From: Candidatus Hydrogenisulfobacillus filiaventi
Lineage (GTDB): Bacteria > Bacillota > Sulfobacillia > Sulfobacillales > R501
Length of the DNA stretch: 64,000 nt
NCBI GenBank assembly: GCA_902809825.1
Contig: LR778114.1
Span: forward strand, 1,798,001-1,862,000
Direction of reading: 5' to 3'
The notes under the pieces: model-generated
Database searches by the model: none
Told to the model about the DNA's origin: nothing
What the model saw: only the letters and a program-made list of their open reading frames with translations
Shown here: positions 2,241 through 49,007 of the stretch, in pieces
How the letters are laid out: each line of letters opens with the position of its first letter
Numbering within the stretch: position 1 is the first letter of the stretch
Program-made: the position numbers and the translations under genes

Positions 2241-2309
2241 GCGCCTCGCCTCCAGTGCATCGGACAAGACCCGCCGGGGCGCTGGGCCTTCCGGCTGTGC
2301 GGGATGGGC

Positions 2310-3999: not shown

Positions 4000-4626
4000 T
4001 TAGCCTCCGGCCTTCCCGCCCAGCGGGGGCGTGACCAGAGCTGGCGGGGTCCCCGCAGGCTCCACCGCCAGCGTCAGCTGGGGCGTGCCCCCGAACCAGG
4101 GCAGGGCCGTCTGCGGCACCTCCAGGGTGACCAGTCCCTGCTGGCTGGAGCCGCCCAAGAGGCTACCGCCGCCCGCAAACCCCGTCACACGGAGGACGCG
4201 GATCCCGGTCAGGAGCACCTGCCCGGTGCCCGAGCCGGATCCGCCGCTCAGCACCGCCACCCGATCGCCCACAGTGACCGGCCCCGCCTGGGCCGCGCTC
4301 AGCGCCAGGGTGACGGCCGCCCAGCCCGGCGGGAGCCGCAGGCCCGATCCAGTCACATCGGCCGCCACCACGGGCGTCCCGGCTGGCAAGGGCAGCCCCG
4401 CCGTCCGGCCGATGACCGCCGCCGGCGGCAACCAGTGCTGCGCCGCCCCGGCGGGCACCCGCACGGTGGCCACGGCGGACGCGGGGATGGGCTGCCCCGC
4501 CGCCACCGCGGTCTTCAACACCGCGACCGGCACCGGGTGATGGCCTGCCTGGCCAGCGGCGGCCGCGAGGCCGATGCCGATCACCCCTCCCAGCAGAGAC
4601 AGCCCTGTGCGCGCCAGCTTGTGCAT
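4000..4626 (-). CDS. cpaB: CpaB/RcpC-like pilus assembly protein
   Basis: 208 aa. N-terminal membrane segment (residues 6-25), then a SAF-type region: VAVLKTAVAAGQPIPASAV followed by a second LPLPAGTPVVAADV segment, typical of CpaB/RcpC of Tad systems. A Gly/Ser-rich stretch and an Ala/Pro C-terminus follow. The family acts at the cell envelope and stabilises the Flp pilus. The start ATG is preceded by GGGAGG. It follows three TadE-like genes and precedes the peptidase gene. Confidence 0.8.
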   Translation of the reverse strand: MHKLARTGLSLLGGVIGIGLAAAAGQAGHHPVPVAVLKTAVAAGQPIPASAVATVRVPAGAAQHWLPPAAVIGRTAGLPLPAGTPVVAADVTGSGLRLPPGWAAVTLALSAAQAGPVTVGDRVAVLSGGSGSGTGQVLLTGIRVLRVTGFAGGGSLLGGSSQQGLVTLEVPQTALPWFGGTPQLTLAVEPAGTPPALVTPPLGGKAGG

Positions 4627-12022: not shown

Positions 12023-12028
12023 CTGTCG

Positions 12029-12175: not shown

Positions 12176-12186
12176 CGCGCCCCATG

Positions 12187-12447: not shown

Positions 12448-12468
12448 CGGAGGATTCCTCTTGGCCGC

Positions 12469-12741: not shown

Positions 12742-12763
12742 TTCGCGAACGCCCCCTTCTTTG

Positions 12764-13021: not shown

Positions 13022-13107
13022 CCTCTCTCATTGTACATCGTTCCCGCCCCGTGCTCCACCCACACTGCCTGATCGGGCGGCCGCCCCAGGGGCGGCCGCT
13101 CGCTGGC

Positions 13108-14389: not shown

Positions 14390-15292
14390 CTAACCTTGGG
14401 GCACCACATAGTGCTGCGGGAAATTCTTGATGGTGGACCATAATGAGTCGCCAAAACCTACGACCTCCCATCCCCGCCCGGCCACGTCCGCCACCAGCAC
14501 TGGGGTCGGGCCGTTCGAACCGTAGTCATAGTCCCCACCCCCAGCGGCAATGTTGTACGACGTCACCACCACCACCTTGACGGCGGAGGCGTGCTGTCCC
14601 TTGGGCAGGAAGCCCGGCAGATCCGGCAGGGTCGGCGTGGGGCCGTAGGTGCCCAGCTTCCGGTTGGCCGCCGACAGCCACTGGCTCGCGGGCTCCACGG
14701 TGTTGACAATGGCGAAGGTGCGATACTCGTAGGCACCGTTTGGCGTGTGCGTGCCCGGCACCAAGCGTGCGGCTAAGTGCAGCCCGTGGGCCAAATTCCA
14801 GTACTGCAGCCCCACCAGGTTGGGAATCCCGCTCCGCACGGTCTGGGGCGACACCAGGGCCTGGGGATCGAGGTAGGCGAGTCCACCCAGGGGATGGTTG
14901 CTGTTCGTCGCGATGATCCAGTGCGCCGCCGTCTCCGCCGCCAGGAAGTCGTTGGGCGTATCGGTCGTCGGCGGGGTATAGCTGAGATCGCTCAGCGTCG
15001 GCCCCGTCTGCCACAGGATCGCGTGATTGGGCGGATACGCCGCCAACGAGAACGGCGGGGTCTTCGGCGCTCCCGGCGCCCGCAGCACCAAGCCCGGGAA
15101 GTCCTTGCCGTAACGGGCCTGGACGCCAGCCAGCGTGACGGGAAACCCGTCCGCAGCCACCGGATAAGGGTGCGCTGTCCGATGCGCCGCGCCGTGTGAT
15201 GCGGGAGGGGATCCACACCCCGCCAGTACTCCCGCCACCCCGATCACCAGCCCCGCCGCCACCAGCATCCGCCGTCGAGCCGACCTCCGCAT
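14390..15292 (-). CDS. lipoprotein 3 of the secreted-protein pair
   Basis: 300 aa; signal GLVIGVAGVLAGC with lipobox. Family blocks FPGLVLRAPGAPKTPPFSL, VPGTHTPNGAYEYRTF and NGPTPVLVADV are all present. The N-terminal signal is unrelated in DNA to lipoproteins 1 and 2, so this is the unduplicated member. Start chosen at MRRSAR behind GGGAGGGGATCGGC. Confidence 0.75.
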   Translation of the reverse strand: MRRSARRRMLVAAGLVIGVAGVLAGCGSPPASHGAAHRTAHPYPVAADGFPVTLAGVQARYGKDFPGLVLRAPGAPKTPPFSLAAYPPNHAILWQTGPTLSDLSYTPPTTDTPNDFLAAETAAHWIIATNSNHPLGGLAYLDPQALVSPQTVRSGIPNLVGLQYWNLAHGLHLAARLVPGTHTPNGAYEYRTFAIVNTVEPASQWLSAANRKLGTYGPTPTLPDLPGFLPKGQHASAVKVVVVTSYNIAAGGGDYDYGSNGPTPVLVADVAGRGWEVVGFGDSLWSTIKNFPQHYVVPQG

Positions 15293-15342
15293 GCCGATCC
15301 CCTCCCGTTTCGCCAGTTTCTGCCTCGCAACCCAGCATCCGC

Positions 15343-15370
15343 AGTATACCTCACGCACTGAACATGGCAA
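15343..15370 (-). promoter_or_regulatory. sigma-A-like promoter of lipoprotein 3
   Basis: TTGCCA (15365-15370), 16-base spacer, TATACT (15343-15348), about 45 bases before the gene. Confidence 0.7.
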
Positions 15371-15659: not shown

Positions 15660-16466
15660 TCAGAGGTGGATGCCGAGCCCCAAGAGCTGGCTGCCGATGA
15701 AGAAGTAGGCCCCCTCCAGCAAGAGGGCCAGGGCCACCAGGGGCGTGACGCCCGTCACCAGCGTCCGCACGCTCCCCGTGAGGGCGTACATCCGCCGCTG
15801 GCGGATGCCGGCGATGAGCGTGTCCAGGGGGTCCAGCGTCGCCCCCGTGAGGCGCTGGTTCGCGGCCTGGGCCAGGGTCACCGCCAGCGTCGCCGCCTCG
15901 AGCGTGCCCACCCGGTCCGCGAACGCCCCCAGCGCCCGGTCCACCGGCCGGCCCCGCCGGAGATCCCGCAGCACCCGCGCGATCTCCGCCGCCAGCCGGG
16001 GCGGCAGCCGCGGCAGGAGCCGCCCCAGCGCGTCCGGCAGGTTGTAGCCCATGTCGAGGAGCAGCCGCAGGTGGTTCAGGAACAGCGGCAGGCCCGCCGT
16101 CACCGCCTGCTGGTAGCCCCGGTCGAGCTGGCGGACGAGCCAGTCCGGCAGGACGAGGGCGAGGGCCAGGGCCAGCCCCGCCACCAGGGGCCCCGGCAGG
16201 CCGAGGAGCAGGCCCCCGAGCGCCAGGCCCGTCACCCAGACCGCCACCAGCGGGAGCAGCCTGGCCGGGGTGAGGCCCAGGACCCGGGCCCGCGCCCGGG
16301 TGGGCGCCCGGGTGAGCCGGGTCCACCACCAGTCCCGCGCCCGCGCCCGCCAGTTCGCCTCGCCAGCCCAGGGGGAGAGCGGGCGGGGATCGGGCCAGCC
16401 CCACCGGATCGCTCCGGCGACGCCGGCGGCCGCGAGCGCGGCCCCGACCCAGAAGAGGCCCGTCAT
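15660..16466 (-). CDS. tadC: TadC-like inner membrane platform protein
   Basis: 268 aa. N-terminal span, a mid pair of spans (LLPLVAVWVTGLALGGLLLG), a T2SSF-type helical region (LPLFLNHLRLLLDMGYNLPDAL...) and a C-terminal span. The ATG overlaps the tadB stop (ATGA), typical of tadBC. Platform for pilus assembly with TadB and the CpaF ATPase. Confidence 0.8.
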   Translation of the reverse strand: MTGLFWVGAALAAAGVAGAIRWGWPDPRPLSPWAGEANWRARARDWWWTRLTRAPTRARARVLGLTPARLLPLVAVWVTGLALGGLLLGLPGPLVAGLALALALVLPDWLVRQLDRGYQQAVTAGLPLFLNHLRLLLDMGYNLPDALGRLLPRLPPRLAAEIARVLRDLRRGRPVDRALGAFADRVGTLEAATLAVTLAQAANQRLTGATLDPLDTLIAGIRQRRMYALTGSVRTLVTGVTPLVALALLLEGAYFFIGSQLLGLGIHL

Positions 16467-17296
16467 GCCGCCATCCCCGCCTTTCGTTGAAGGCCCCGCA
16501 GGAGCACCGCCGCGAGGAGGGTGAGCCCCACGCTCGCCCCGCCCAGGATCCAGCCGATCGGTAACGCATCCAGGTGGCGCGCCGTCGGGCTCAGGGCCGG
16601 CCAAAGCACCTGCACCGCGGCGGCCACGGCGATGGCCCCCCAGGCCGTCTGGGCGCTGGCCGCGAGCTGACCCGCCCGCTGCTGCTCCTGCTGCAGCCGC
16701 TCGCCCCAGAGCGTGGTGAGCCGGGTGAGGAGCGCGGCCACGTCCAGGGACAGCCGATCCGCCTGGTAGAGCACGTCCGCGAACAGCCCCAGGTCCGGCA
16801 GCCCCCAGTCGGTGCCCGCCTGCCGGATCGTGTCCGGCAGGCGGCCGGCCTGCCGGGCCTCGTCCCCGAGCGCCGTTTGCAGGATGTCCGCCAGGGGCGG
16901 CCGGGTGTGGGGGGCCAGCGCCCGGATGGCCGCCGGCACGTTCGGCTGCAGGGGCAGGAGGTTCCGGAGCGCCATCGCGAGCGCGTAGGCGTCCCGGTCC
17001 AGCTGCTGGCGGCGGGCCGCCCGGGCCCGGTCCTCCAGCCAACGGGGGAGCCAGGCCCCCACCACCCCGTAGCCCGCCGCCACCAGGGGATTGCGGGTGG
17101 CGAGGAGCACCCCCGCCCCCAGCCCCAGCGCGGCGCCGAGGGACCCGAGCCGCATCCAGCGCCGGGGCCACACCGGGCCGGGCGTAAAGCGCCGGGCCGG
17201 CGCGGGGAGGAGGCGCCGGACGCGGGGCGGGGCGGGGGCCAGCGCCCACCAGACGCCCAGGCCCCCGCCCACCGCCGCGATCAGGATCCCGATCAT
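16463..17296 (-). CDS. tadB: TadB-like inner membrane platform protein
   Basis: 277 aa with paired N-terminal spans, a T2SSF-like helical domain (AMALRNLLPLQPNVPAAIRAL) and two C-terminal spans. Start overlaps the end of cpaF, end overlaps tadC. Confidence 0.8.
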   Translation of the reverse strand: MIGILIAAVGGGLGVWWALAPAPPRVRRLLPAPARRFTPGPVWPRRWMRLGSLGAALGLGAGVLLATRNPLVAAGYGVVGAWLPRWLEDRARAARRQQLDRDAYALAMALRNLLPLQPNVPAAIRALAPHTRPPLADILQTALGDEARQAGRLPDTIRQAGTDWGLPDLGLFADVLYQADRLSLDVAALLTRLTTLWGERLQQEQQRAGQLAASAQTAWGAIAVAAAVQVLWPALSPTARHLDALPIGWILGGASVGLTLLAAVLLRGLQRKAGMAA

Positions 17297-18582
17297 GCCG
17301 ACCACCCGCCCATCGCCGCCATCCGCTCCCGGTCCGGGGAGAGGTCCGCCTCCTGCCGCCAGGTGGTGCCGTCCCAGCTCCAGATCGTCCGCTGGGTCCC
17401 GTCGGGCTGGGGCTCGGTCACCGCCAGAATCCGGCGGTGTTCCACCCCCTGGGCGTCCCGCGGCCGGCCGATCTGCACCACCAGGTCGATGGCCTCCGCC
17501 ACCTGCTCCGCCAGCTCGTCGCGGGGGATGGCGACCCCGCTCCGGCGCAGGATCCACGCGAGGCGCGCCACCAGGGCCGAGGCCCGACGCAGGTGGATGG
17601 TTAGCAGCATGCCGCCCGCCTCCGTCACGCCCGCCTCCAGCGTGTCCAGCGCCTCGGCGCTCCGGACCTCCCCCACCACGATGCGGTCCGGCCGCATGCG
17701 CAGTGTGTTCACGAAGAGGTCATGCAGCGTGACCACCGTCTCCTGGGCGGCCTGGACGTCCATGCGCTCCCGGGCCACCAGCCCCACCGCGTGGGGCAGC
17801 TCGTGGTCGAGCTGCAGCTCCGGGGTGTCCTCCATGCTGATCACCCGCTCGTCCCGGGGGATCGCCGCCCGCGCGAGCGCCCGCAGCACCGTGGTCTTGC
17901 CGCTGCCGGTGGGCCCCGCGATGCAGAGGTTGAGCCGGGCCCGCACCGCCCGCATCAGCCAGGCCGCCAGGGCCTCCGACAGCATCCCCCGCGCCACCAG
18001 GTCCGTGAGGTCCAGCACCGCCTCCGCGTTGCGCTTGCGGATGGTGAGCAGCGGCACCCCCTGGGCGCTGACGCTCTCGTGCACGACGTGGATGCGGGCC
18101 CCGTTGTCCGGCCAGATGACCGTCTGCAGGGGCAGGGTGGGCTGATACCGACTGCCCGCCCGGGTGGTGAGATGGATGGCCAGCTGGCGGGCCTCCTCCA
18201 CGGACCCGAGCGCCGGCTCCTCCACCCAGGCGCCGCGCCGCTCGGTGCGGATCTGCCGGCCGTCCAGCAGGATCTCCGTCACGGCGGGGTCGCGCATGTA
18301 GGGCTCGAGCGCCGCCGCGCCCAGGAGCTGGGCCCGCAGCACCGCCAGGAGGCGGTCCCGCACGGGCGGGCTCGGCCGCACGCTCGCCACCGCCTCCACC
18401 AGGGCCTCCTCCACCGCCCCGCGCCCGAAGCGCTCGGGAAAGGCCAGCAGGTCGGGGCGATGGGCGTCGAGCCACGCCCAGGCCGCCTCCAGCAGTTCGT
18501 CGGTCCGTCCGCTCTCCTCCGCCGCCTGGCCCACCGCCCGCAGCCGGGCGGGGCGCCGGAGGTATTCCGTCACCGCGTTCAT
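17293..18582 (-). CDS. cpaF: CpaF/TadA secretion ATPase, cluster 1
   Basis: 429 aa. Walker A GPTGSGKT at residues 223-230, Walker B-like RPDRIVVGEVR at about 298-308, and MEDTPELQL between them, as in GspE/CpaF-type hexameric ATPases. N-terminal part is the CpaF-type helical domain. Powers pilus assembly in the cytoplasm. Overlapping ATGA junctions on both sides indicate one translational unit with tadZ, tadB and tadC. Confidence 0.9.
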   Translation of the reverse strand: MNAVTEYLRRPARLRAVGQAAEESGRTDELLEAAWAWLDAHRPDLLAFPERFGRGAVEEALVEAVASVRPSPPVRDRLLAVLRAQLLGAAALEPYMRDPAVTEILLDGRQIRTERRGAWVEEPALGSVEEARQLAIHLTTRAGSRYQPTLPLQTVIWPDNGARIHVVHESVSAQGVPLLTIRKRNAEAVLDLTDLVARGMLSEALAAWLMRAVRARLNLCIAGPTGSGKTTVLRALARAAIPRDERVISMEDTPELQLDHELPHAVGLVARERMDVQAAQETVVTLHDLFVNTLRMRPDRIVVGEVRSAEALDTLEAGVTEAGGMLLTIHLRRASALVARLAWILRRSGVAIPRDELAEQVAEAIDLVVQIGRPRDAQGVEHRRILAVTEPQPDGTQRTIWSWDGTTWRQEADLSPDRERMAAMGGWSA

Positions 18583-19991
18583 GCCCGTCGCCTGCCTTTC
18601 GGGGTCTCACCGGTCAGGATCTGCCAGAAGCGGCGCCAGGGCTCCGCCGTCGCCAGGGGCCGGTGCCGCTGCCAGGCCGCCGCCAGCGGTCCCGGCGCGT
18701 AGGGCACCACCCCCAACAGGGCCGCCGGCACATGCACCCGGGCAATCTCCGCCGCCGGAATCGCCTCCTTCGGCCCCCCGCGCCGGTTGACCACCAGCCA
18801 GATCCGCTCCGGCGGCAGCGCCAGGCCCTCCGTGAGCTGATGCCAGAGCCGGTTGGCCGCCAGCACCGCGTCCGGCTCGGGCGTGGTCACCAGCACCACC
18901 GCTCCGTCCGTGGCCACGAGCCGCACGGCCGCCTCCGTCGCCTCGTCCAGCATCGGCGGCAGGTCCGCCAGCACCCAGCGGTCGTGCCGGAGCGCCACCG
19001 TGAGGAGCTGTCGCGGCCCGTCGAGCGGCGGCAGCACGTAGCCGCGCTTGGAGGGACGGGGGGCTGGCACCAGGGTGCAGGCCCGGTCCACGGCCGGCAG
19101 ACTCTGCACGTACCGCGCGAGGACGTCCTCCGCCGCCAGGGCCCCGGCCTCCCCGGCCGCCTCCAGGGCCGCGAACACGCCGCCGAGATCGGGCAGGGTG
19201 GGGGAACCCGGCGCCACCCACCAGTCCGCAAGGCCGGGGTTCACGTAGTGCAGGTCGACCCCGAGCGCGCTGCCCGCCCGGGCCGCCGCCGCCAGGAGAT
19301 GGGCGGTCACGGTGGTGACGCCCACCCCGCCCTTGGCGCCGATCACGGCCACGAAACGGGCGGCGGGCACCACCTCGCGCACCACGCTGGGACTGGGTGG
19401 CGCGGAACCCGGCTGGTGGCCGGATGCGGGGGCAGGCGCCCGATCCGGGCCCCGGGATCTCCGGCCGGGGCCGAACAGCCCGCGACGAGCCTCCGGCTGT
19501 CCCTGCGCATGGGCCGGAACGGTCGGATCCCCCGCGCTCCCTGCCGGGATGGTCGAGGTGGGCGCCTCCGGCTGGACCGGAATCGCCTCCGGCTGGACCG
19601 GAATCGCCTCCGGCTGGACCGGCTCCTGGTCTCCCCAGGCGACCAGGAAGGCACCCGGGTCCACGATCAGGCCGTCGTCCCCCTCCTCCACCTCCACCAC
19701 GCGCCACGTGGCCTCGTCCACTGGGGGGACGGATCCCGGCATCAGCAGCACGGCCGCCCTCACGGACGGGCGGGCGCGCAGCAAGGTGGCCAAGCGATCC
19801 GACCAGGCCCCCCAAGCCGGATCCGTGGTGCTGACCACGAGTCTGGCGTCTTCTGGCAGATCCCACCAGCCACGGGCCAGCTCCTCGACGGACGCCATGG
19901 TGCGCATCTCCGAATCCGGCCACGCCTCCCGCAGCACCGTGCGCAGACCGTCCGCCTCGTCGGGCGGCATCACCAAATACACCGTCGTCAC
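18579..19991 (-). CDS. tadZ: TadZ/CpaE-like localisation ATPase, cluster 1
   Basis: 470 aa from a GTG behind AGAGGAG. N-terminal receiver-like region (VYLVMPPDEADGLRTVLREAW), a Pro-rich linker with three VQPEAIP-type repeats at about residues 124-143, and a MinD/ParA-type C-terminal domain with deviant Walker A GAKGGVGVTT near residues 218-227. TadZ proteins mark the site of pilus assembly. Confidence 0.8.
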   Translation of the reverse strand: MTTVYLVMPPDEADGLRTVLREAWPDSEMRTMASVEELARGWWDLPEDARLVVSTTDPAWGAWSDRLATLLRARPSVRAAVLLMPGSVPPVDEATWRVVEVEEGDDGLIVDPGAFLVAWGDQEPVQPEAIPVQPEAIPVQPEAPTSTIPAGSAGDPTVPAHAQGQPEARRGLFGPGRRSRGPDRAPAPASGHQPGSAPPSPSVVREVVPAARFVAVIGAKGGVGVTTVTAHLLAAAARAGSALGVDLHYVNPGLADWWVAPGSPTLPDLGGVFAALEAAGEAGALAAEDVLARYVQSLPAVDRACTLVPAPRPSKRGYVLPPLDGPRQLLTVALRHDRWVLADLPPMLDEATEAAVRLVATDGAVVLVTTPEPDAVLAANRLWHQLTEGLALPPERIWLVVNRRGGPKEAIPAAEIARVHVPAALLGVVPYAPGPLAAAWQRHRPLATAEPWRRFWQILTGETPKGRRRA

Positions 19992-20017
19992 CGGTCGCGC
20001 TCCTCTCGATCGTGATC

Positions 20018-20635
20018 TCAAGCCGTGGAGACCGCCCGATACACCACCTCGGCCGCCAGCAGTGTGGCCAGGGCGATCTCCGGCCGCCACACCAGCAGGC
20101 CGAGGTAGATGCTCCAGCGAAACCACGTCTCCGGCGGCGTGCCGACCGGGATGTTCGGCACCGGGCTGTGCACCCGGTACGGTAGCGGCCAGAACCACTG
20201 CACCCCGGTGGTGTTAAGCGTGTCCACGACCAGATGGCTGGCGTACCCGGCTGCCCAGCCCCAGTCTCCCCCAGGTCCCCACACACGCCAGAGGCGCAGG
20301 ATCCAGGCCGGGTGCCCGATCCCGACGCCCATCGCCCACCAGAACCGGGCCAGGATGGATCCCAGCAGCGGCTCCACCAAGCCCACCGCAACCGCCATCG
20401 CCAGCCAGGAGTGCAGGACGCCCCGGTGTCGGACGGCCCCCGTCGCCGTGGCCAGGGCGGCCAGGGCGGAGGCCCCGGGGATGGCGCGGGTCAGCAGAGC
20501 CCGGGGATGATCCAGATCCGGGGCTAGGCCCCCCAGGCCCCCCATCACCAGCCAAGCCGGATCCAGGGCATGATGGGTGGCGACGGCGGCCACGGCGGCC
20601 AGGGCCACCCCGGCGGCGATGTGCGTACGGGCCAT
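20018..20635 (-). CDS. YdjM/LexA-binding-type membrane metal hydrolase-like protein
   Basis: About 205 aa. GGLGGLAPDLDHP near the N-terminus, HRGVLHSW in the middle and GYASHLVVDTLN further on are the Asp/His motifs of the YdjM (DUF457) family of membrane proteins with a metal-dependent hydrolase-like site. Several membrane spans. Role here unknown; it sits between tadZ and the c-di-GMP gene. Start at MARTH behind GGGAGG; a Met seven codons earlier is possible. Confidence 0.75.
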   Translation of the reverse strand: MARTHIAAGVALAAVAAVATHHALDPAWLVMGGLGGLAPDLDHPRALLTRAIPGASALAALATATGAVRHRGVLHSWLAMAVAVGLVEPLLGSILARFWWAMGVGIGHPAWILRLWRVWGPGGDWGWAAGYASHLVVDTLNTTGVQWFWPLPYRVHSPVPNIPVGTPPETWFRWSIYLGLLVWRPEIALATLLAAEVVYRAVSTA

Positions 20636-20654
20636 CACCGGCACCACCTCCCGC

Positions 20655-20700
20655 AAAAAACCATCCGGCCCGCGCCTCTTCTGGCGCGGGCCGGATGGCC
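20655..20700 (-). terminator. intrinsic terminator after 20714 gene
   Basis: Long stem GGCCATCCGGCCCGCGCC / GGCGCGGGCCGGATGG followed by TTTTTT on the minus strand. Confidence 0.85.
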
Positions 20701-20713: not shown

Positions 20714-21151
20714 CTAGCCGCCTGCGGAGTTGCCAACTTGTTGCACAAAATGGCCAACGGCGCTGGCCACGACGTTGGCCACGTGCGTCATGCCAGCTAC
20801 CAGGTCGATCCACCCGTTGCTGAACACGAGGCCGACCAACACGAAGCCCAGCAGGATCTCGGTCAGACTCTGCAGCGCGGGGCGGCCCTGGAGAAAAGGC
20901 ACCTCTTTGTCTTGAAAGAAGTGCCGCTTGGCTTCCACCGATTCCCCCTTGTTCACTTTATACGCCAGCCGCAGCAATCCCCACGCCCCGACGAGCAGGA
21001 TGTAGAGGCCGAACAGGCCCGCAGCCCAATCGAAGACATGGACCACCAGACCACCCACGCCAGAGGTGGCGCTGGGCAGCGATGGCTGCACCTGCGACAG
21101 CGTGTTTTGCAGCTGGGCGGGTCCCCCACTAGCACCAGAAGCCCAAAGCAT
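20714..21151 (-). CDS. two-span membrane protein (145 aa)
   Basis: Short soluble N-terminus, a span AAGLFGLYILLVGAWGLLRL, a basic and acidic cytoplasmic loop (NKGESVEAKRHFFQDKE), then a second span ILLGFVLVGLVF and a Gly-rich end. Layout recalls small T4SS/pilin-like subunits, but no motif supports a family. Own terminator; GGGGGGAAGG ribosome site. Confidence 0.6.
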   Translation of the reverse strand: MLWASGASGGPAQLQNTLSQVQPSLPSATSGVGGLVVHVFDWAAGLFGLYILLVGAWGLLRLAYKVNKGESVEAKRHFFQDKEVPFLQGRPALQSLTEILLGFVLVGLVFSNGWIDLVAGMTHVANVVASAVGHFVQQVGNSAGG

Positions 21152-21322: not shown

Positions 21323-23386
21323 CTAGGACGAGGCTGCCGCGCCCTCCCTCCAGGTGGCCAGGATGGCTTCCCGGAGCGGAGCCAGCGCCCGCACCCATTC
21401 CCCTGTTGGCACGCCCCCCAGGCCCAGAGGATCCGACGGGATTCGGATCAGGCGCGGAGTGGCGGGATCCACCCGACTTCTGGTGGCGGCCCACACTCCG
21501 GAGGGGAGGGGCACAACCGGTCTCGCGCCCGCCAGGACGCAGATGCCCTCAACCCCCGGCAACGCGGGCGGCCGCACGCCGGCGTCCAGCACCACCACGG
21601 CATCCACGGCCGCGCTGCGGGCGCCCAAGGCCAAGTAGCGATCCAGGATGGGGGGATGCACCGCGATGGACTCAGCGAACAGCCAAGCGGAAAGGCGATC
21701 CGCCATCCGCACCTCGACCCGCGGCGACTGGGCGGGCGTGCCGGCGATCCAGGACACCTCCCACCCCCGATTGTGCGGAGGGGCTTTCCCGATCATCACG
21801 CCGAGGCGGGGATGGGTGGGCGTGCCCTCCAGGAGGCGCACCGGCACCGCCCCCTCCCATGCCAGCCATTGCGCCAGCACCAACGCGAGGGTGCTGGTGC
21901 CCACCCGGCGATCCTCCCCCCATACCCACCAGACGGTGCCGACCGGGATTGGCAGCCCGCGGGCAACGTGGCTCTCTGTGGGCGGGTGCGGGATCTCGGG
22001 CTCCGCTTGATCCGGCGGCTTCTCGACCTGCGGAATCTCCGGCGGCGGTTCATCTCGACGGCTGGCCCATATCGCCCGCTTCGCCTTGGCCCATTCCGGC
22101 CACGCGAACCCTGGCGGCTGCGGGGTCGCCCCCGGTTCAGTCTCCGGGTGGGACTCCCCCGCTGTCGAGCGACCGGCGTCCAGATCCGTGACGCCCCATC
22201 GGTGCGCGACGCCCGTTCGCCACGGGGGCGGGGACGACCCCGATCGCTCCGCATGCCGCCCTGCCGGGGGAGAGGACGGGGCGGCGGTTGCCGATTTCAT
22301 CGCCCAGGTTCGACGCTTGCCGGCCGGACTTGCTGGGGCGACCAACGGCTGTCCCGCCGGCTCCTGGGACGTTGGTCGCGTCTCCCCATCCACCTCGGCA
22401 GGCGCTGTGACGGGCTCCTCCCGTGGCGGCTTCGGCTCGGCGGGAGGCGCTGCGGCGGGCTCCTCCCGTGGAGGCTTCGGCTCGGCGGGAGGCGCTGCGG
22501 CGGGCTCCTCCCGTGGAGGCTTCGGCTCGGCGGGAGGCGCTGCGGCGGGCTCCTCCTTCGGCTCAGCCAACCCAGTGGAGGCGATCTGCCGACCGGACGC
22601 CTGGTGATGCGCGACCTTGGCTTGGTACATGGCGCGATCCGCCTCCTGGATCGCCGTCTCCCACCCAGAAGCGACCAGGCAGCGAGCCCCACCGCAGCTG
22701 ATGGCGACGCCCGCCTCCGCGGCCCCAGCCTCCAGGTTGCCCACCACATGGTCCATGGTGGCATCGGGCGTCTCCCGCCACGCGATCATCCACTCGTCGC
22801 CACCCCAGCGGGACACCATGGCGGAGGCCGGAGCTGCGGATCGCACCAGCTGGCCAATGCGCTGGATCAGTCGATCCCCAGCCGCATGGCCCTGAGTATC
22901 GTTGATCGTCTTCAGGCCATCCGCGTCCACGAACAGGATCGCATAGGGCCCCGGCTCCCGGCGCTCGACCCGCCACTGCCACCAGCGCTCCCCAGCCGGT
23001 CTGGACCAGCATCCGCTCAGACGATCCCGGGCCAGCGTGGCGTACGGCTCCGGCCACGTCGTGGGATCTCCCGGCGGCCAGGATGGATCCGGCAACGTGT
23101 CGGAGATGCCCAGCAGAACAGCCCACAGGCCGGGTCTCCAGGCCGTGTCCACGATCAGCACACGGGTGCCCTTCGCGGCGAACAGGGCGGAGATCTGATC
23201 CCAAGCCTCGGCAAGCCGGTGCCGCTCCTCGACCGGCCTCCCGCCCGCCTCGCGCACCACGATGTCATCGACCGCCAGATCGTCCGGCCATCTCGCGGCG
23301 GATCGCGCCGTCTGCAGCGCTTGCGCAAGGCTGGAGAACCGCATCACGCCATCGGGGGGGCCGTCTGTTGTGACTCGCCATCTCAT
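21323..23386 (-). CDS. GGDEF diguanylate cyclase fused to TadZ/MinD-like domain
   Basis: 687 aa. Residues 1-140 are a soluble domain of unknown type. Residues ~145-265 are a GGDEF domain with FVDADGLKTINDTQGHAAGD (metal and guanine contacts) and signature GGDEW at 195-199; the product-inhibition RxxD motif is not present five residues before it. Residues ~278-330 are Pro-rich repeats (EEPAAAPPAEPKPPR units, three in tandem). The C-terminal ~200 residues resemble TadZ/MinD ATPases: WGEDRRVGTSTLALVLAQWLA in the P-loop position, without the usual Lys, then MIGKAPPHNRGWEVSWIAGTP. Predicted to make c-di-GMP at the pilus assembly site. Lies between the two tad clusters, start behind AAGGAGG. Confidence 0.85.
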   Translation of the reverse strand: MRWRVTTDGPPDGVMRFSSLAQALQTARSAARWPDDLAVDDIVVREAGGRPVEERHRLAEAWDQISALFAAKGTRVLIVDTAWRPGLWAVLLGISDTLPDPSWPPGDPTTWPEPYATLARDRLSGCWSRPAGERWWQWRVERREPGPYAILFVDADGLKTINDTQGHAAGDRLIQRIGQLVRSAAPASAMVSRWGGDEWMIAWRETPDATMDHVVGNLEAGAAEAGVAISCGGARCLVASGWETAIQEADRAMYQAKVAHHQASGRQIASTGLAEPKEEPAAAPPAEPKPPREEPAAAPPAEPKPPREEPAAAPPAEPKPPREEPVTAPAEVDGETRPTSQEPAGQPLVAPASPAGKRRTWAMKSATAAPSSPPAGRHAERSGSSPPPWRTGVAHRWGVTDLDAGRSTAGESHPETEPGATPQPPGFAWPEWAKAKRAIWASRRDEPPPEIPQVEKPPDQAEPEIPHPPTESHVARGLPIPVGTVWWVWGEDRRVGTSTLALVLAQWLAWEGAVPVRLLEGTPTHPRLGVMIGKAPPHNRGWEVSWIAGTPAQSPRVEVRMADRLSAWLFAESIAVHPPILDRYLALGARSAAVDAVVVLDAGVRPPALPGVEGICVLAGARPVVPLPSGVWAATRSRVDPATPRLIRIPSDPLGLGGVPTGEWVRALAPLREAILATWREGAAASS

Positions 23387-23573: not shown

Positions 23574-23996
23574 CTATCCCCACCAATGCCCCGTCACCAG
23601 CCGGGCGATCACCCACGCGGCTCCCAGCCAGGGGGCGAACGGGCGGGGCGGGGGTGGCCACCGCCGCCGCCAGGCGCTTTCCGCCAGGTGGGCGGTCAGG
23701 GCCAGTCCGGCCGCCCCCGCCACCAGCAGCAGGCCGGGCAGCGGGCCCAGCCACGCCCCCCAGACGGCCAGCAGGCGGGCATCGCCGCCGCCGAACGCCT
23801 CCGTCGCCAGCGCCAGGCCAAAGCCCAGGCCGCCCACCAGCAGGAGGCCCGCCCACGCGGCGCCCCATTGGCCCCGCGCCCCGTGCCAGGCCAGCGCCGC
23901 CCCCAGGCCAAACCAGATGGGCGCCACCGGAATGGTGCGGGTCCGGCAATCCGCCCAGGCGGTCCAGACGGCGAAAAGGGCCGTGAGCCCCGTCAT
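23574..23996 (-). CDS. tadV: TadV/CpaA prepilin peptidase
   Basis: 140 aa. First catalytic Asp in WADCRTRTIP (~residues 14-23) and second in FGGGDARLL (~70-78), both typical of A24 peptidases; five or six spans. ATG overlaps the cpaB stop. Cleaves the leader of pilins such as that at 27175. Confidence 0.85.
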   Translation of the reverse strand: MTGLTALFAVWTAWADCRTRTIPVAPIWFGLGAALAWHGARGQWGAAWAGLLLVGGLGFGLALATEAFGGGDARLLAVWGAWLGPLPGLLLVAGAAGLALTAHLAESAWRRRWPPPPRPFAPWLGAAWVIARLVTGHWWG

Positions 23997-24634
23997 CGCA
24001 CCGGAGGCTCCGCGACCAGCCAGAAGCTGGCGCCGTTGGCCGTGGCGGACAGGTACGGCCCCACGGCGTTCAGCACTGGCGGCGTGGCCGCCACCGCCAC
24101 CAGGGCGGGGGCATCGGAGGCGGCCGATCCCGCGGTGGACGGGTTGGCCGGGAGCGGAGCGCCGTTGGACTGGTAGACTCCGATCACCCGCACATCGGTC
24201 GCCAGGACGCTCGTGGTGTGCGGGCCGTTGTAGCTGCCTTGCAGCCCCAGGATTTCCACCCGGCTGCCGGCATGGACCAGGGCGCTCTGGGCTGGCGAGA
24301 CGGGCAGCACCAGGCGGACCTCTCCGGCCTTCAGCCCTTGCACATGACCCCCGAGATCCCCCGCCAGGACCGGGGCTCCCCGCACCAGGGCCACGGCCAC
24401 CCGCTGGCCGTGCACCTGGGCCGGGGTGAGGGCCCCCGGGGGTGCGGGGGCCAGCACCCGCCAGGGCCGGACGTCCGCCCGGATCAGGCGGGCCCCCGCG
24501 GGCACGGGCCGCGCGGCTTGGGCGATGACGACGGTGGCCGGGGGATGGGTGCGGCTCCAGAGGACCCCGCCTCCCGCCAGGGCGGCTGCCAGGGCCACGC
24601 CTCCCCGCCATGTGGAACGACGCAATGACACCAT
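23993..24634 (-). CDS. cpaB: CpaB/RcpC-like pilus assembly protein, cluster 2
   Basis: 213 aa. N-terminal span (GGVALAAALAGGGVLW), SAF-like AARPVPAGARLIRADVRPW, then a periplasm-type region with IDs close to CpaB (VRLVLPVSPAQSALVHAGSRVEILG). Starts behind GGAGGAGAGG, 50 bases after the TadG-like gene. Confidence 0.85.
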   Translation of the reverse strand: MVSLRRSTWRGGVALAAALAGGGVLWSRTHPPATVVIAQAARPVPAGARLIRADVRPWRVLAPAPPGALTPAQVHGQRVAVALVRGAPVLAGDLGGHVQGLKAGEVRLVLPVSPAQSALVHAGSRVEILGLQGSYNGPHTTSVLATDVRVIGVYQSNGAPLPANPSTAGSAASDAPALVAVAATPPVLNAVGPYLSATANGASFWLVAEPPVR

Positions 24635-24684
24635 GGCCTCTCCTCCGTTTTCGGTTTCATGAAGCACGGAGCGGAACCGCTGCC

Positions 24685-26136
24685 CTACTCGCCCGAGAAC
24701 CCACTGGGGCCGAGACCCCAGATCCGCTCCACACGCCAGACGCTCAGCGTCGTGTGAAGGGGCAGACCGAAGAAGTACAGCGTGTACGGCACCTGGAGCG
24801 TGCCGGCCACGTAGGGGCCGCCGGGTTCCACCGTGGACCCCGCCTCCGTGACGGCTCCACCCATGCCCCATTGCAGGTGGGTCAGCTGCAGTGGACCGCT
24901 CCAGGCGGTGGCCGATGGCGGCGACTGCGCCGTCGGCGTGAACAGGGCGTGATGCGGCCCCTGCGCCTGCACCTGCGCCCGCAGGTCCGCCGCGATGGTC
25001 TGGATGGCGGCCTGGCTAGCCGCGGACCCGCTCCACGTGATGCCCGGCGCCGTGCCCTGGGTGGACCCGTCCGTCAGCGGCCCCGTCCACGACGCCTGCT
25101 GCCCCGTCTGGGGATTGAACACCGTCACCTGCACCTGATCGCCCAGCTGATCCACCCAGGTGCCCTGCCCGTAGCCGCCCGCGAAGCCGTCCAGCACAAT
25201 CTGCGTGGGGGACCAGCTCTGGTAGTCCATCGTCACCACGTTCTGATCGGTGCCGCCATTGGTGTACCCGCCCTGCCAGGACCGGGACAGGTCGTTGAAG
25301 GCGAAGGATGCCGTGTCCCCCGTGTAGGGCAGCGTCGCGGTGGGCGCTTGGGCCGGGCGCGTCCACAGGCCGAACAGGTTGACGCTTTCGGTGGCTCCCA
25401 CCGTAATTTGATACGTACCTGGTTCTAATGGGGGGCTTTGCCAGTCGATCAGGGGCGTCGACCCGTTTTGGGTGTTCCAATTGGCGCCGCCTGTGTAAGA
25501 CCCGTTGGTCACGACCGCTCCGGTGATGGTGTTGGTGACGGTCACGGTGCCGACCACATTGGACCAGTTGCTGTCCCAGGCATACGGCGGCGTTTGCAAA
25601 CTCAACTGCTCGGTTTGCCCTTGCGGAACCGTAAACGTCGTGGTGGCCGTGGCGTACCCGTTGCCCCGGTTCAGCACCTCGCCGGCATCGGCTCTGCAAA
25701 AATTGGCCACCCACCCAGTGAAGGTCCAGCCGCCATTGCAGGCGTTGTTCACTTGTGTCCAGGAGGCGCTGGTGGTATTCTCCGGCACGGGCGCGTTGCC
25801 AAAGCCGGAGCCGTCGATCGTGATCTGCAGGTCTTGACCCGAACCGCTGAACGAGACGGCAGAGATACGGATCCCGTTCCCGTTCTGGATGGAGCCCCCG
25901 ATGCCCGGCTGGCCGGCGTGGTCCTCCACCCCCTGGGTGGCGGCGGCGGCCAGGCCCGCCGTGAGGGCGGCCCGGAGATCCGCCCGGGCGGTGGCGGCCT
26001 GGGCGTAGTTCCAGTACGCCTGGGCCAGCACCAGCACGATGGGCACCAGCAGCACGGCCAGCAGGAACGTGCTGAGGCCGCGCCGGTCGGCCCATCGACG
26101 GGCAATCCGCGCCCGCCAGCACTTGCGGTCCCGCAT
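24685..26136 (-). CDS. TadE/TadG-like protein with large exported domain (483 aa)
   Basis: Basic N-terminus then one span (STFLLAVLLVPIVLVLAQAYWNY, residues ~22-44) in the position of TadE/TadG proteins. The rest is a long Thr/Asn/Gly-rich, beta-rich exported region with many Trp and only two Cys, no repeats with known names. Start is 3 bases after the previous stop. Probably a surface-exposed, tip- or adhesin-like component of pilus 2. Confidence 0.65.
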   Translation of the reverse strand: MRDRKCWRARIARRWADRRGLSTFLLAVLLVPIVLVLAQAYWNYAQAATARADLRAALTAGLAAAATQGVEDHAGQPGIGGSIQNGNGIRISAVSFSGSGQDLQITIDGSGFGNAPVPENTTSASWTQVNNACNGGWTFTGWVANFCRADAGEVLNRGNGYATATTTFTVPQGQTEQLSLQTPPYAWDSNWSNVVGTVTVTNTITGAVVTNGSYTGGANWNTQNGSTPLIDWQSPPLEPGTYQITVGATESVNLFGLWTRPAQAPTATLPYTGDTASFAFNDLSRSWQGGYTNGGTDQNVVTMDYQSWSPTQIVLDGFAGGYGQGTWVDQLGDQVQVTVFNPQTGQQASWTGPLTDGSTQGTAPGITWSGSAASQAAIQTIAADLRAQVQAQGPHHALFTPTAQSPPSATAWSGPLQLTHLQWGMGGAVTEAGSTVEPGGPYVAGTLQVPYTLYFFGLPLHTTLSVWRVERIWGLGPSGFSGE

Positions 26137-28310: not shown

Positions 28311-29209
28311 GGTGCCGCCTCCTCGAACTGGGCCGGATCCGCTTGCCGGAGGGTGTGCTGGGCGACGGCAAGACCCGCCAAGAGGACGCCGAGTCCCGCC
28401 AGCGCCAGCCCCTGGCCCAGGGCCGATGCCCGGAACACCGCCATGGTCGTGGGATCCAGCACCCAGCCCGCCAGCCAGGCCCCGATGGGGGCGGCCGTGA
28501 ACAACCAGCCCAAGAGCTGGCCGCTGGCGAGCTGGCCCAGCCGCTGCTCGTCCTCGGCCAGCCGGCCGCCCCAGGCCGCCAGCAAATCCGCCAGGAGGTC
28601 GTCCGCCGGCCGGGCGGCGCGGTCGGTGGCCAGAATGTCGGCCAGGAGGCGCAACTCGGCATGGCCTAAGCGATCCGCCAGCCGGGCGAGGCCCTGCTCC
28701 AGCGGCTCCCGGCCCAACCGGTCCCGGGCCAGCGCCTCCGCGAGCCAGCCCCGCAAGGGCGGATCCGCCTCCGGGGCCAGCCGCATGAGGGCCACCCGGG
28801 GATGGCCCGCGAGGGCCAGCGTGTAGCGCAGCGTGTTGGCCAGCGCGTAGGCGGCTCGGTCCGCCGCCCGCCAGCGGGCCCGGGCCCAGCCGTCCAGCAG
28901 GATGGGCGGCAGCCAGAGGGCGGCCACGCCCAGGACGCCGGCCACCAGCACCAGATGGGTGACCGCCAAGGCCAGCACCCCCAGCGCCCCCGCCGTCCCC
29001 GCCTGCAATGGACGCAGCCAGCGGGCGGATCCGGGCAGGTCGAGGACCCACCAGCGCCGGTCCCAGGCCGTCCGGAGCTCCGGGGCTGCCGCCGGCTCCG
29101 TCGCGGGCGGGGGCCCGGCGACAAAGCGGAACCGAGCCGGTGCCGGGGCCGACAACCACCAGGCGGCCAAGCCGGCCAACGCCGCCACCAGCGCCACCGC
29201 CGCAGTCAT
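28307..29209 (-). CDS. tadB: TadB-like platform protein, cluster 2
   Basis: 300 aa: N-terminal span, paired spans near residues 70-105, T2SSF-like helical region (YALANTLRYTLALAGHP) and two C-terminal spans. Overlaps cpaF and tadC by ATGA. Confidence 0.8.
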   Translation of the reverse strand: MTAAVALVAALAGLAAWWLSAPAPARFRFVAGPPPATEPAAAPELRTAWDRRWWVLDLPGSARWLRPLQAGTAGALGVLALAVTHLVLVAGVLGVAALWLPPILLDGWARARWRAADRAAYALANTLRYTLALAGHPRVALMRLAPEADPPLRGWLAEALARDRLGREPLEQGLARLADRLGHAELRLLADILATDRAARPADDLLADLLAAWGGRLAEDEQRLGQLASGQLLGWLFTAAPIGAWLAGWVLDPTTMAVFRASALGQGLALAGLGVLLAGLAVAQHTLRQADPAQFEEAAP

Positions 29210-30486
29210 GGGGCCACCTCCCATGGGGCCGGGGGCCAGCCGCCACCGTTGTCCAGGATCTTCCGCACCCGGGCCGGGGAGAGCTCGCCCACGGCCACAT
29301 GGCGGCCCGCCTCCGGGTCCCAGCGCCACAAATCCCGCATGCCGGTCCCGTCCGGCTCGCTGATGCGGGTGACGCGCCGCGTGCCGTCGGCGAACTTGTC
29401 CACATGCGCCACCAGGCCGAAGACCTGGTAGGCCTCGCGGGTGATGCTCTCCAGGCTCACGTCCCAGCCCGCCCGCTGGGCGAGCCAGAACAGGCGAGGC
29501 CCGAAGCGCTCCGGCGCCTCGAGGTGCATGGTGGTGAGCATGCCCCCGTGTTCGCTCATGCCCGCCTCCAGCATGTCGAGCGCCTCCACGCTGCGCACCT
29601 CGCCCACGAGAAGCCGGTCCGGGCGCATGCGCAGGGCGTTCACGAAGAGGTCGTGCAGGGTGATGGTGAGCTCGTTCCCCTGGCCCTGGGTGCTGACGAG
29701 GGGCACGGTGTGGGGATGGACGAGCCGGAGCTCCTCGGTGTCCTCGAGGGTGATCACCCGTTCCGCCGGGTCGGTGAGGGCCGCGTTGGCCAGGGCCCGC
29801 AGGTTGGTGGTCTTGCCCGCGCCGGTGGAGCCGGACAGCAACACGTTCAGCCGGCCACGCACGGCGGCCACCAGGAGGCCCGCCATCTCCGCCGTCAGCA
29901 CCCCCAGGCGGACGAGATCCGCGAGCTCCAGGGCCAGGCCCTGGTTGCGCTTCCGGATGGTGATCACGGCCCCCTTGGGGCAGAGCGCGGGATGGACCAG
30001 ATTCACGCGGCTACCGTCCGGCCAGGTGAGGTCCACCCGGGGATGCGCCTGCTGGAACCGGCGGCCCACCTTGGCCGCCAGGTCCTCCGCCACCCGGAAG
30101 GCCGCCTCCGGCGAGGGCAGGTCGGGCTCCCTGTGCCACCGGCCCGCTCGTTCCACCCAGACCATGGTCCCGGTCACCGCGATCTCGGTGACCAGGGGGT
30201 CCTCCAGGTAGGCCTGCAAGGGGCCGGCCCCCAGCACCGCCGCCCACAGGTCCGTCCGCAGGCGGCGGGCCAGATCCGCCGGGGCTCCCGTCTCCGCCAG
30301 GGCCTGGGCGATGGCCTCGGCCACCGCCCGCTCCTGGCCGGCGGGATCCGCCAAGAGGCCGCTGTAATGCCGGGTCAGCCAGTCCGTGGCCGCCCGCCGG
30401 GCCGCGAGGTACGCATCGGAAACCTCCGGCACCGCCTGTGACGGGGCCGGTGCCAGAGGACCGGCCCCGCCGCTCCACGTCCGCAT
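29206..30486 (-). CDS. cpaF: CpaF/TadA secretion ATPase, cluster 2
   Basis: 426 aa. Walker A GSTGAGKT at residues 219-226, [10 protein letters not shown] after it, and [11 protein letters not shown] as the Walker B-like block. Same operon order as cluster 1. The two CpaF proteins are clearly related but well diverged, so cluster 2 is not a recent copy of cluster 1. Confidence 0.9.
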
Positions 30487-30504
30487 CGGGGCGCCCTCCC
30501 TTCC

Positions 30505-31815
30505 TTATCCCAACAGCCGCTGCCGGCGTCCGAACCGCCAACCCCGGGCCGCGGGCCCCGGCACCGCCAACAGGCGGCGCAGCAGGGCGGCCCACGGGCC
30601 CCGGCGCTGGCCCCAGGCCACCGGCTGATGCCGGTCCCAGGCCAGCGGCTGGCGGGCGTCATAGGGCACGACCCCCAACAGCGGCAGCCCCAGGGTCCGG
30701 GCCAGATCCCCGGGATCCCGCCCGCCGCCCGTGGGACTGCGCCGCACCACCAGGAGGCGGCGAGGGGCACGGATGGCCGCGAACTGGGCCAGCTGGTGCA
30801 AATACCAGGCCGTCTGCAGTTCAGCCCCCGGGTCCGGGGTGCTCACCACGACGATGGCCGACGCCCGCTCCAAGGCCCGCAGGGTGCCGGGATCCCCGAG
30901 GTCCCAGGCGGTGTCCACCACCACCAGCCGGTGCCGCCGGCGCAGGAGGTCCAGCAGCGCGTCCGCCACGGGGGCGGGCACCACCGCCGGCGTGAGATCC
31001 CGGACCGGACCGGGCACCAGATGGACGCCGGGCGCCGCCCAGGGCAGCCGCTCCATCCAGTCGGCCACCAGCCGCAGATCCGTGGGCGTGAGAGGGTCCT
31101 GCTCGGGCTCCACCACCGTGGCCAAGAGGCGGCGCAGATCCGGCTGGGGCCGGTCGGGATCCTGGAAGGTGTACCAGAGATCCGGCTTGGGCGCGTCCAG
31201 ATCCAAACCGGCCACCGGCTCCACGCCCAACGCCCGGGCCGCCGCCAGCAGGTTGGCCGCAGTGCTGGTCTTGCCGACGCCGGCCTTGCCGGAGGCCACC
31301 ACCAGCACGGGCGTGTCCTCCCAGGGCAAGGGAGCGGCCGCCGCTTCCGCAGGGGCCGCCAGCTCCGGTCGCGCCGCGGCCACCGGCGCTGCCGGCTCCG
31401 GAATGGGAGGTGCGGGGGGCGGGGCGTCCACAGGAATCCCGGCAGGCGTGTCCAACCAGCTCTGCACCGCGTCCGGTGCAATCTGGGCACCCGGCAGCAC
31501 ATCGAGCCCCGCCGCCTCGCAGGCGGAGGCCACCGGTTGCCCGCGCCCGTCCAGGACGCCCACCAGCACCAGGATGCGGGCGGTGGGGTCCGCCGTGCGG
31601 CAGGCGGCGGCCCAGGCCGCCCAGTCGGGGGGCGCGCCGGGGGCGAAGCGGGTCACGACCGCCCAGGACCCGGGATGGCGGGCCAGCCGCGCCGGCAGCG
31701 CCGTCGCGGGGACGGGGACCCACGGGCTGGGGGGATGGACCAGAGTCTGCAGCGCCTGGGCGGCTGTGGGATGGGCCGCCAGGAAGCAGAGCCGTTTGCC
31801 GGGCATACGTGTCAT
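30505..31815 (-). CDS. tadZ: TadZ/CpaE-like ATPase, cluster 2
   Basis: 436 aa. N-terminal receiver-like domain, Ala/Pro-rich linker (residues ~130-165), P-loop SGKAGVGKTS at ~175-184 of the MinD/ParA type. The ribosome site GGAGGAGG lies just after the U-run of the preceding terminator. Confidence 0.8.
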   Translation of the reverse strand: MTRMPGKRLCFLAAHPTAAQALQTLVHPPSPWVPVPATALPARLARHPGSWAVVTRFAPGAPPDWAAWAAACRTADPTARILVLVGVLDGRGQPVASACEAAGLDVLPGAQIAPDAVQSWLDTPAGIPVDAPPPAPPIPEPAAPVAAARPELAAPAEAAAAPLPWEDTPVLVVASGKAGVGKTSTAANLLAAARALGVEPVAGLDLDAPKPDLWYTFQDPDRPQPDLRRLLATVVEPEQDPLTPTDLRLVADWMERLPWAAPGVHLVPGPVRDLTPAVVPAPVADALLDLLRRRHRLVVVDTAWDLGDPGTLRALERASAIVVVSTPDPGAELQTAWYLHQLAQFAAIRAPRRLLVVRRSPTGGGRDPGDLARTLGLPLLGVVPYDARQPLAWDRHQPVAWGQRRGPWAALLRRLLAVPGPAARGWRFGRRQRLLG

Positions 31816-31827
31816 CGCCTCCTCCAA

Positions 31828-31862
31828 CAAAAAAACCGCCGCCTCCGGGCAGGAGGCGGCGG
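31828..31862 (-). terminator. intrinsic terminator directly upstream of tadZ
   Basis: CCGCCGCCTCC / GGAGGCGGCGG stem followed by TTTTTTTGTT on the minus strand, only 13 bases from the tadZ ATG. Ends the Cys-rich gene transcript or acts as an attenuator for the tad operon. Confidence 0.8.
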
Positions 31863-48281: not shown

Positions 48282-49007
48282 TCAACGGCGATCCCGCTCC
48301 GCCCGCCAAGCCCTCGGCGGCAGGGAAGGAGGCGGAGGGTGCCACTCCACCTCAGCCCACTGGGTGGGACGGGCGATGGCGAACCCCTGGGCGGCGAAGA
48401 AGCCCAGCTCTTTGGCCACGGCATACTGCGCCTGCGTCTCCACGCCCTCCGCCACCAGCCGGATTCCCCGATCCTGAGCAAAACCGCGGACGAGCTGCAG
48501 CCAGCGTCCCAAGCCAAATCGAACGGGAGCCTGCCACACCAACCCTGCGTCCAGCTTGACCCACTGCACCGGCCAGGTCGTCAGTCGGGTCGTGGTGCCA
48601 ACGGACTCCCCCCAATCATCCAGCGCCACCGGAGCGCTGCCAGCCACCCGCTCGATCAGGTTCGTGGCCCATCCGGCCAGCTCAAGGATCTCCCAGACGA
48701 CTGGTGCCAAGCCCGCCCGCGCCGCCACAGGATCCCATTGCGCCAGAGCCGCCACCCCATCTGGGTGCAGGTTGACCCACACCGGCTCCGGCGGCAGCTG
48801 TCGCCTCCAGCGACGAATGTCCTCCAGCACCTGCCACTCCAGCGCCGCCACACGCCCAGTTCTGGCCGCCCAGCTCCAAAGCTGGGCGGCCGAGGTCTCC
48901 CCTGCTCCCCGGGTCAACCACTCCCGCCCAATAATGGCTCCGGTTTCTAGAGCCACAATGGGCTGAAGCCAATAAGCCAAGCGGATGGGCGCCGATGGGG
49001 TGGTCAT
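48282..49007 (-). CDS. EAL-domain c-di-GMP phosphodiesterase
   Basis: 241 aa, an EAL domain alone. YWLQPIVALETGAIIGREWL (EAL as EWL, Glu kept), VNLHPDG (Asn ligand), VWEILE, ALDDWGES (DDFG-type), VKLDAGLV (Lys) and AEGVETQAQY then AQGFAIARP. The main metal and catalytic ligands look present, so activity is plausible. ATG overlaps the xseB stop. Confidence 0.85.
   Translation of the reverse strand: MTTPSAPIRLAYWLQPIVALETGAIIGREWLTRGAGETSAAQLWSWAARTGRVAALEWQVLEDIRRWRRQLPPEPVWVNLHPDGVAALAQWDPVAARAGLAPVVWEILELAGWATNLIERVAGSAPVALDDWGESVGTTTRLTTWPVQWVKLDAGLVWQAPVRFGLGRWLQLVRGFAQDRGIRLVAEGVETQAQYAVAKELGFFAAQGFAIARPTQWAEVEWHPPPPSLPPRAWRAERDRR

Follow-up and report, generated by a model that had tools for sequence, protein, structure and literature searches.

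A GGDEF–MinD-like fusion protein and its relatives at a Tad/VirB4-type locus of Candidatus Hydrogenisulfobacillus filiaventi

How c-di-GMP can exert its effect at a single machine instead of cell-wide has long been a question. It arises for a gene in a 64,000-nucleotide stretch of the genome of Candidatus Hydrogenisulfobacillus filiaventi (contig LR778114.1, positions 1,798,001–1,862,000; hereafter the window), which joins a GGDEF domain to a MinD-like domain and lies between two sets of tad genes. The initial annotation had read this gene as a diguanylate cyclase fused to a TadZ/MinD-like ATPase. What does the gene encode, which machine does its product accompany, and what might it do there?

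Domain architecture of the fusion protein

The fusion gene (21326..23386, minus strand) is a single uninterrupted frame that runs from 23386 to 21326, with the stop codon at 21323–21325, and encodes 687 amino acids arranged as an N-terminal domain, a GGDEF domain, a linker, and a MinD-like domain devoid of the P-loop lysine. The continuous frame rules out a gene boundary between the cyclase and MinD-like halves, so that the proposed single-gene fusion holds. The ATG start codon at 23386 is preceded by GGAAGGAGGTGCGACGC, a near-perfect ribosome-binding site; the gene call rests on the frame, this site, the Pfam GGDEF match, and homologs of the same architecture. Since the same fusion recurs in other genomes, it is genuine and beyond chance.

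The N-terminal domain (residues 1–112; 23051..23386, minus strand), delimited by alignment and an AlphaFold2 model, is common to the relatives from the same taxonomic order and missing from those of genomes G304 and G537 in the alignment. In the AlphaFold2 model of the relative from G010 it has a β-α-β-α-β arrangement. Its interpretation as a TadZ-type receiver was dropped, as hhalign gave no match between this domain and TadZ. The GGDEF domain (residues 115–270; 22577..23044, minus strand) matches Pfam PF00990 over residues 138–260 (E = 5e-19, 69 bits against a cut-off of 23.8). A residue check found the active-site residues D154, N162, D171, G195-G196-D197-E198, and K257 all kept, which agrees with the GGDEW motif and DADGLK..GD residues first noted there; the motif reads RWGGDEW, W replacing the final F, and the position of PleD R446 is occupied by His. 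The product-inhibition site RxxD is absent, as had also been observed, and PASA stands at the I-site position. Judged by these residues, the domain is apparently an active cyclase. The following linker (residues 271–480; 21947..22576, minus strand), delimited by TRF and a protein scan, is rich in Pro, Ala, and Glu, and its DNA contains a 45-bp tandem repeat in 3.6 copies at 22396–22556 (TRF), with EEPAAAPPAEPKPPR present three times.

The C-terminal domain (residues 481–687; 21326..21946, minus strand) has no match in Pfam or NCBIfam, and its family lacks a model in both collections. Its AlphaFold2 model, computed from six aligned family members, is of medium confidence only (pLDDT 73, pTM 0.77) and presents a MinD/ParA-like fold, with VIA Z-scores of 15.6 to FleN and MinD (189 residues aligned, rmsd 3.2) and 13.8 to TadZ (PDB 3fkq), and BcsQ as the top Foldseek match (E = 1e-5); the ATPase-like fold anticipated after residue ~480 is thus recovered in the model. 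In the alignment to TadZ, the P-loop EDRRVGTST stands opposite SKGGVGKTT with both lysines lost, and it does not match the deviant Walker A pattern KGGxGK[ST]T, which bears out the earlier description of a Lys-less P-loop. The lysine is absent from all eight aligned members of the C-domain family, whose loops read RRVGTST, RRSGTST, RHVGTTT, RRAGATT, RRGGSTT, RHAGATT, and GTGVTH, plus one shortened loop. Positions that are invariant or nearly so among the eight include W5, W7, an LL[DE]G loop, GW59-60, W86, and a D119xG121 loop. Because the P-loop has been consistently abandoned across the family, the domain is probably a family-wide Lys-less variant of the MinD fold that does not hydrolyze ATP as a normal ATPase would. 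Comparison with TadZ by hhalign gave a weak match confined to the P-loop region (P = 7e-5 for canonical TadZ, 0.015 and 0.12 for the two local TadZ groups); the candidate assignment of the domain as a standard TadZ is supported neither by this profile comparison nor by the P-loop motif.

A protein family with different N-terminal halves

Relatives of the fusion were found in ten other genomes, which together belong to two bacterial classes. Members from the same order occur in G029, G004, G010, G024, and G028, the last being cut by a contig end, and the C-domain family is present in 6 out of 154 genomes of the class. G304, G525, G537 (two copies), G552, and G559 came from a search of the phylum and its follow-up within a single family of another class. 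A scan of genome contigs returned only the already known G028 contig, and the plasmid and viral collections contained no relatives. The order of domains seen in the fusion is shared by the proteins of G029, G004, G010, and G024 and, in the other class, by those of G304 and G537.

The N-terminal halves of these proteins come in three states. Intact GGDEF domains are present in the protein studied here, in G304 and G537 (both RYGGDEF), and as the second GGDEF domain of G029 (KGGDEL), whereas those of G010, G024, and G004 and the first one of G029 are degenerate. The G029 protein (L027:3527-6055) carries two GGDEF domains ahead of the MinD-like domain, and its intact second one has an RTSD I-site. 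An apparent receiver-like N-terminal half is found in G525, G559, and the second G537 copy; these halves (for instance, G537 L105 and G525 L095) were judged by eye from the sequence and have no Pfam match. The G525 and G559 proteins each have one further MinD-like domain; the C-domain of G552 occupies a frame of its own.

The assignment of the first domain of the G010-type relatives as a degenerate GGDEF domain draws on predicted fold, profile, and tree. Its AlphaFold2 model in G010 (pLDDT 88.7) was based on an alignment that included the intact GGDEF domain of the present genome as one row, and the VIA list for this model consists entirely of GGDEF-containing proteins (Z up to 13.9). Profile comparison of the degenerate domain with GGDEF gave P = 1e-4 over the whole domain, and in the tree the degenerate set stands next to the GGDEF domain of the present genome, a placement that carries a long-branch warning.

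The GGDEF domains of G304 (L096:10048-11913) and G537 (L106:9222-10637) have Thr and Asn at the position of PleD D344. This residue of PleD recognizes guanine, and Hypr cyclases known to make cGAMP carry Ser instead. Because of these substitutions, the product of the two domains may not be c-di-GMP. In another case, G013, G003, and G005, which belong to another family of the same order, have an intact GGDEF domain joined C-terminally to a TraD-like ATPase (loci L013, L014, L070:6126-9791, L071, and L072); the G013 copy adjoins a gene for a ParM-like actin, and the TraD-fused GGDEF domains group with the second GGDEF domain of G029 in the tree (95/86).

Tad and VirB4-type genes of the locus

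As initially described, the fusion gene is flanked by two tad sets, whose TadZ–CpaF pairs lie at 17293–20198 and 29206–31830. The tad genes, the CpaB/RcpC-like genes, and the two membrane-protein genes next to the fusion are all on the minus strand. At 20714..21151 lies the gene for a small two-helix membrane-type protein of 145 aa (phmmer E = 1e-9 to 3e-5), which is kept beside the fusion or the DUF457 gene in G010, G024, and G004, and related small proteins occupy this position in G304 and G537. The conserved neighbor at 20018..20656 is a YdjM/DUF457 membrane protein (Pfam YdjM, E = 3e-21) with orthologs in G010, G024, G004, G029, and G304. The first tad set comprises the TadZ1 open frame (18579..20198, with the true start near 19997), the CpaF1/TadA ATPase of the VirB11-like family (17293..18582; TIGR03819, E = 8e-50; orthologs 48–51% identical), the platform protein TadB1 (open frame 16463..17557, by synteny and BLAST), and TadC1 in the C-terminal half of the frame 15660..17249 (BLAST to a T2SSF protein of G024). 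On the other side of the fusion, the frame 23574..24611 has a TadV-like prepilin peptidase as its C-terminal half (phmmer to TadV-like proteins of G304 and G525), and a CpaB/RcpC-like protein with a weak Pfam match to the SAF domain is encoded at 23993..24871; a second CpaB/RcpC-like protein of the locus is located at 4000..4626 (Pfam SAF, E = 7e-7). The second tad set contains the CpaF2/TadA ATPase (29206..30486; TIGR03819, E = 5e-61) and TadZ2 (30505..31830; Pfam CbiA, E = 2e-7). The expectation of a normal TadZ in each set is correct for TadZ2, with its canonical P-loop GKAGVGKTST, and fails for TadZ1, which has lost the P-loop lysine (KGGVGVTT) that its orthologs in G010, G024, and G029 keep (KGGVGKTT).

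The genes that accompany the fusion in its relatives extend beyond the tad sets. Downstream of the fusion, their conserved order is a large membrane protein, then a PrgI-like protein, a VirB4/TraC ATPase, and a lytic transglycosylase, the latter being followed by an FtsK-type ATPase in the present genome, G004, and G304; upstream are small membrane proteins and, in most cases, DUF457/YdjM. Wherever contigs allow, TadZ, CpaF, and TadB/C are encoded in the same locus. The same gene order holds in G304, apart from an EAL gene that follows the fusion, and in G537, apart from the lack of DUF457, although both belong to another class. In the present genome, the order conserved elsewhere is interrupted by ~20 kb between the fusion and the VirB4 set: the ortholog of the large membrane protein (by BLAST synteny) is at 3..2267 on the minus strand, and the PrgI-like, VirB4/TraC, SLT, and FtsK genes, identified by Pfam and NCBIfam, lie just outside the window, from genome position 1797830 down to 1792036. 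The VirB4/TraC ATPase is above the cut-off for PF19044 and, in NCBIfam, below the cut-offs for TIGR02746 (E = 6e-22).

The C-domain family was detected confidently in 6 out of 42 genomes of the order, and the VirB4 clade of these loci is present in the same six; among 46 genomes of the family of G304, VirB4 of this clade occurs in G304 and G537 only, both of which encode GGDEF-type proteins. These eight genomes are related, so that they do not represent eight independent events, though they span two classes. No VirB4 of the fusion-linked clade is found in G525, G552, or G559, and the receiver-type members of G525, G559, and G537 are located in tad loci without VirB4. The type of N-terminal half therefore tracks the machine, GGDEF with Tad plus VirB4 and receiver-type with tad genes alone. 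The link of the fusion to tad drawn in the initial annotation stands as to its position inside a tad region and its MinD/TadZ-like fold, and the link to TadZ is strengthened because receiver-type relatives sit in tad loci; however, what GGDEF-type proteins consistently accompany is a Tad plus VirB4-type locus rather than Tad alone.

Three weaker VirB4 paralogs (28–29% identity) belong to a different, sister type of locus (L111, L112, and L110, in G549, G304, and G542), in which the order is DUF457, a membrane protein, a protein with the deviant MinD-like motif TKRYVGVTT, VirB4, an EAL gene, and, in G549 and G304, FtsK. The motif is in the C-terminal part of that protein, and its N-terminus looks PrgI-like.

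The window also encodes an EAL-domain phosphodiesterase (48282..49007, minus strand; Pfam EAL, E = 5e-24), whose orthologs include EAL genes from the tad loci of G004 and G029 (E = 3e-50 and 3e-44 by phmmer). The G004 ortholog is just before TadZ and that of G029 is on the tad contig; in G304, an EAL gene (E = 2e-39) directly follows the fusion, and the stretches read in G010 and G024 contain no EAL gene. A PilZ-type protein is encoded at 51903–52346; genome-wide, there are ten EAL and three PilZ matches. The genes for a ParM-like actin (47273–48253), the EAL protein, and the PilZ-type protein lie within 5 kb of each other, near genes for exonuclease VII and a cell-wall-binding protein, and this stretch could belong to some large integrated element.

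Possible function and relation to known systems

Both halves of the fusion have familiar folds. Pfam, NCBIfam, and the papers searched yielded no trace of the combined protein, its family, or its link to this type of locus, in keeping with the earlier remark that no characterized protein with this domain order is known, and the architecture is undescribed in the searched literature, which takes in a minority of subscription journals. The localization ATPase of Tad pili, TadZ/CpaE (PDB 3fkq), resembles the fusion in having a MinD-like domain encoded in a tad locus and, as regards some relatives, a receiver-like N-terminal half. However, the fusion has GGDEF in place of the receiver and has lost the P-loop lysine and both glycines, its locus owns separate TadZ proteins, and it tracks VirB4; lacking both a receiver-like domain and the lysine, it is not a TadZ in the strict sense. 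In the cellulose secretion system of E. coli, BcsE, with its degenerate REC-GGDEF tandem, binds both c-di-GMP and, by another surface, the MinD-like BcsQ, which it brings to the membrane (PMC7439463). Here too a GGDEF fold and a MinD-like protein meet on a secretion machine, but as one fused chain rather than two proteins, and with a GGDEF domain that looks intact whereas that of BcsE is catalytically dead. FleN/FlhG, which acts with FleQ, shares the MinD-like fold, is a top VIA match, and belongs to a c-di-GMP-regulated machine, but it is an active ATPase without GGDEF. Response-regulator cyclases (PleD, WspR, and DgcR) share the GGDEF cyclase domain but lack a MinD-like one, and no receiver is identified in the fusion. 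Finally, VirB4/TraC, PrgI-like, transglycosylase, and FtsK-type genes are those of Gram-positive VirB4/PrgI-type systems, here joined to a Tad platform and a cyclase/phosphodiesterase pair. By analogy, we infer that the fusion may work like TadZ or BcsE–BcsQ.

On balance, we favor the view that the fusion serves a hybrid Tad/type IV secretion machine as a scaffold which either produces or senses c-di-GMP. It would represent, as we think fairly probable, an undescribed modular family in which a flexible linker connects a swappable input domain (GGDEF, degenerate GGDEF, or TadZ-type receiver-like) to a Lys-less MinD/TadZ-like docking domain. The GGDEF form would be a dedicated part of a locus combining the Tad platform (TadZ, CpaF, TadB/C, and prepilin peptidase) with the VirB4/PrgI-like/transglycosylase/FtsK set. 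Its MinD-like half would dock on the machine, at TadZ1, CpaF, or VirB4, without ATP hydrolysis; in the present genome its GGDEF half would make c-di-GMP at that site, and the EAL protein of the locus would degrade it, so that the machine would carry its own c-di-GMP switch and its assembly might be controlled in this way. Such a built-in switch is probable because the GGDEF-type fusion is encoded only in genomes with the hybrid locus. In Caulobacter, high c-di-GMP promotes Tad retraction (PMC6581867). Synthesis at the pilus is not the function of the whole family, given the degenerate cyclases of G010, G024, and G004; such members would probably sense c-di-GMP or offer a docking surface, much as the degenerate GGDEF of BcsE does for BcsQ. 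One CpaF-type ATPase could serve both the Tad and the type IV side, as CpaF/TadA is closest to the TrbB/VirB11 ATPases (PMC11300603). More tentatively, we can picture Bacillota as having a hybrid of Tad motor/platform and VirB4 core run by its own c-di-GMP circuit of docked cyclase, EAL protein, and sensor relatives, which we regard as possible rather than probable.

The same evidence bears on other explanations. The fusion might be a pole-marking TadZ paralog that synthesizes c-di-GMP exactly at the Tad pilus, with the type IV genes as incidental neighbors; its place between two tad sets, its TadZ/MinD-like C-domain, and the receiver-type relatives in tad loci speak for this, but the GGDEF-type proteins match the VirB4 clade exactly across 88 genomes, most TadZ-bearing genomes have no fusion-type protein, and each local tad set already owns a TadZ, which together make such a role unlikely. 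A somewhat better case, though still a rather unlikely one, can be made for an integrated mobile element whose transfer apparatus the locus would encode, with the fusion regulating DNA transfer and not pilus adhesion. VirB4, FtsK, SLT, ParM-like actin, and DNA methylase genes nearby, a ParB gene near the G004 locus, and the related GGDEF domain fused to a TraD-like ATPase beside ParM-like actin in G013 are consistent with transfer, whereas no relaxase was seen among the locus genes scanned and the family is absent from plasmid and viral records.

We give little credence to a GGDEF domain that is non-catalytic in all members and acts as a c-di-GMP/GTP sensor or pure scaffold, like BcsE and PelD. 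Retention of the fusion with degenerate GGDEF in G010, G024, and G004 would fit it, as would GGDEW for GGDEF and His at the R446 position here, but all metal/GTP-binding residues (D154, N162, D171, GGDE, and K257) are kept in the present protein, and G029, G304, and G537 retain GGDE, a conservation hardly to be expected if activity were not selected. As for an accidental, functionally meaningless gene fusion or an assembly artefact, the low-complexity repeat linker between the halves might recall one, but the same in-frame two-domain order with conserved neighbors in independent genomes of two classes leads us to reject it as extremely improbable.

If the favored scaffold role is true, local action of c-di-GMP would become open to direct test, through a cyclase covalently joined to a docking domain and a phosphodiesterase encoded in the same locus. 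Across the family, receiver and GGDEF domains replace one another on a common MinD-like base, and the machine changes with them (Tad only against Tad plus VirB4). The family further suggests a hybrid of Tad and type IV secretion that is absent from the papers searched.

The region holds other genes for secreted-type and membrane proteins. Two near-identical kilobase-scale repeats at 7096–9396 and 10761–13072 encode secreted-type proteins with the motif VPGTHTPxGGYEYRTWA in common; a further, diverged copy of the repeat is found at 14390–15370. Near the tad region, a VKOR-family membrane protein is encoded at 36144–36971 and is possibly a disulfide-forming system for secreted parts.
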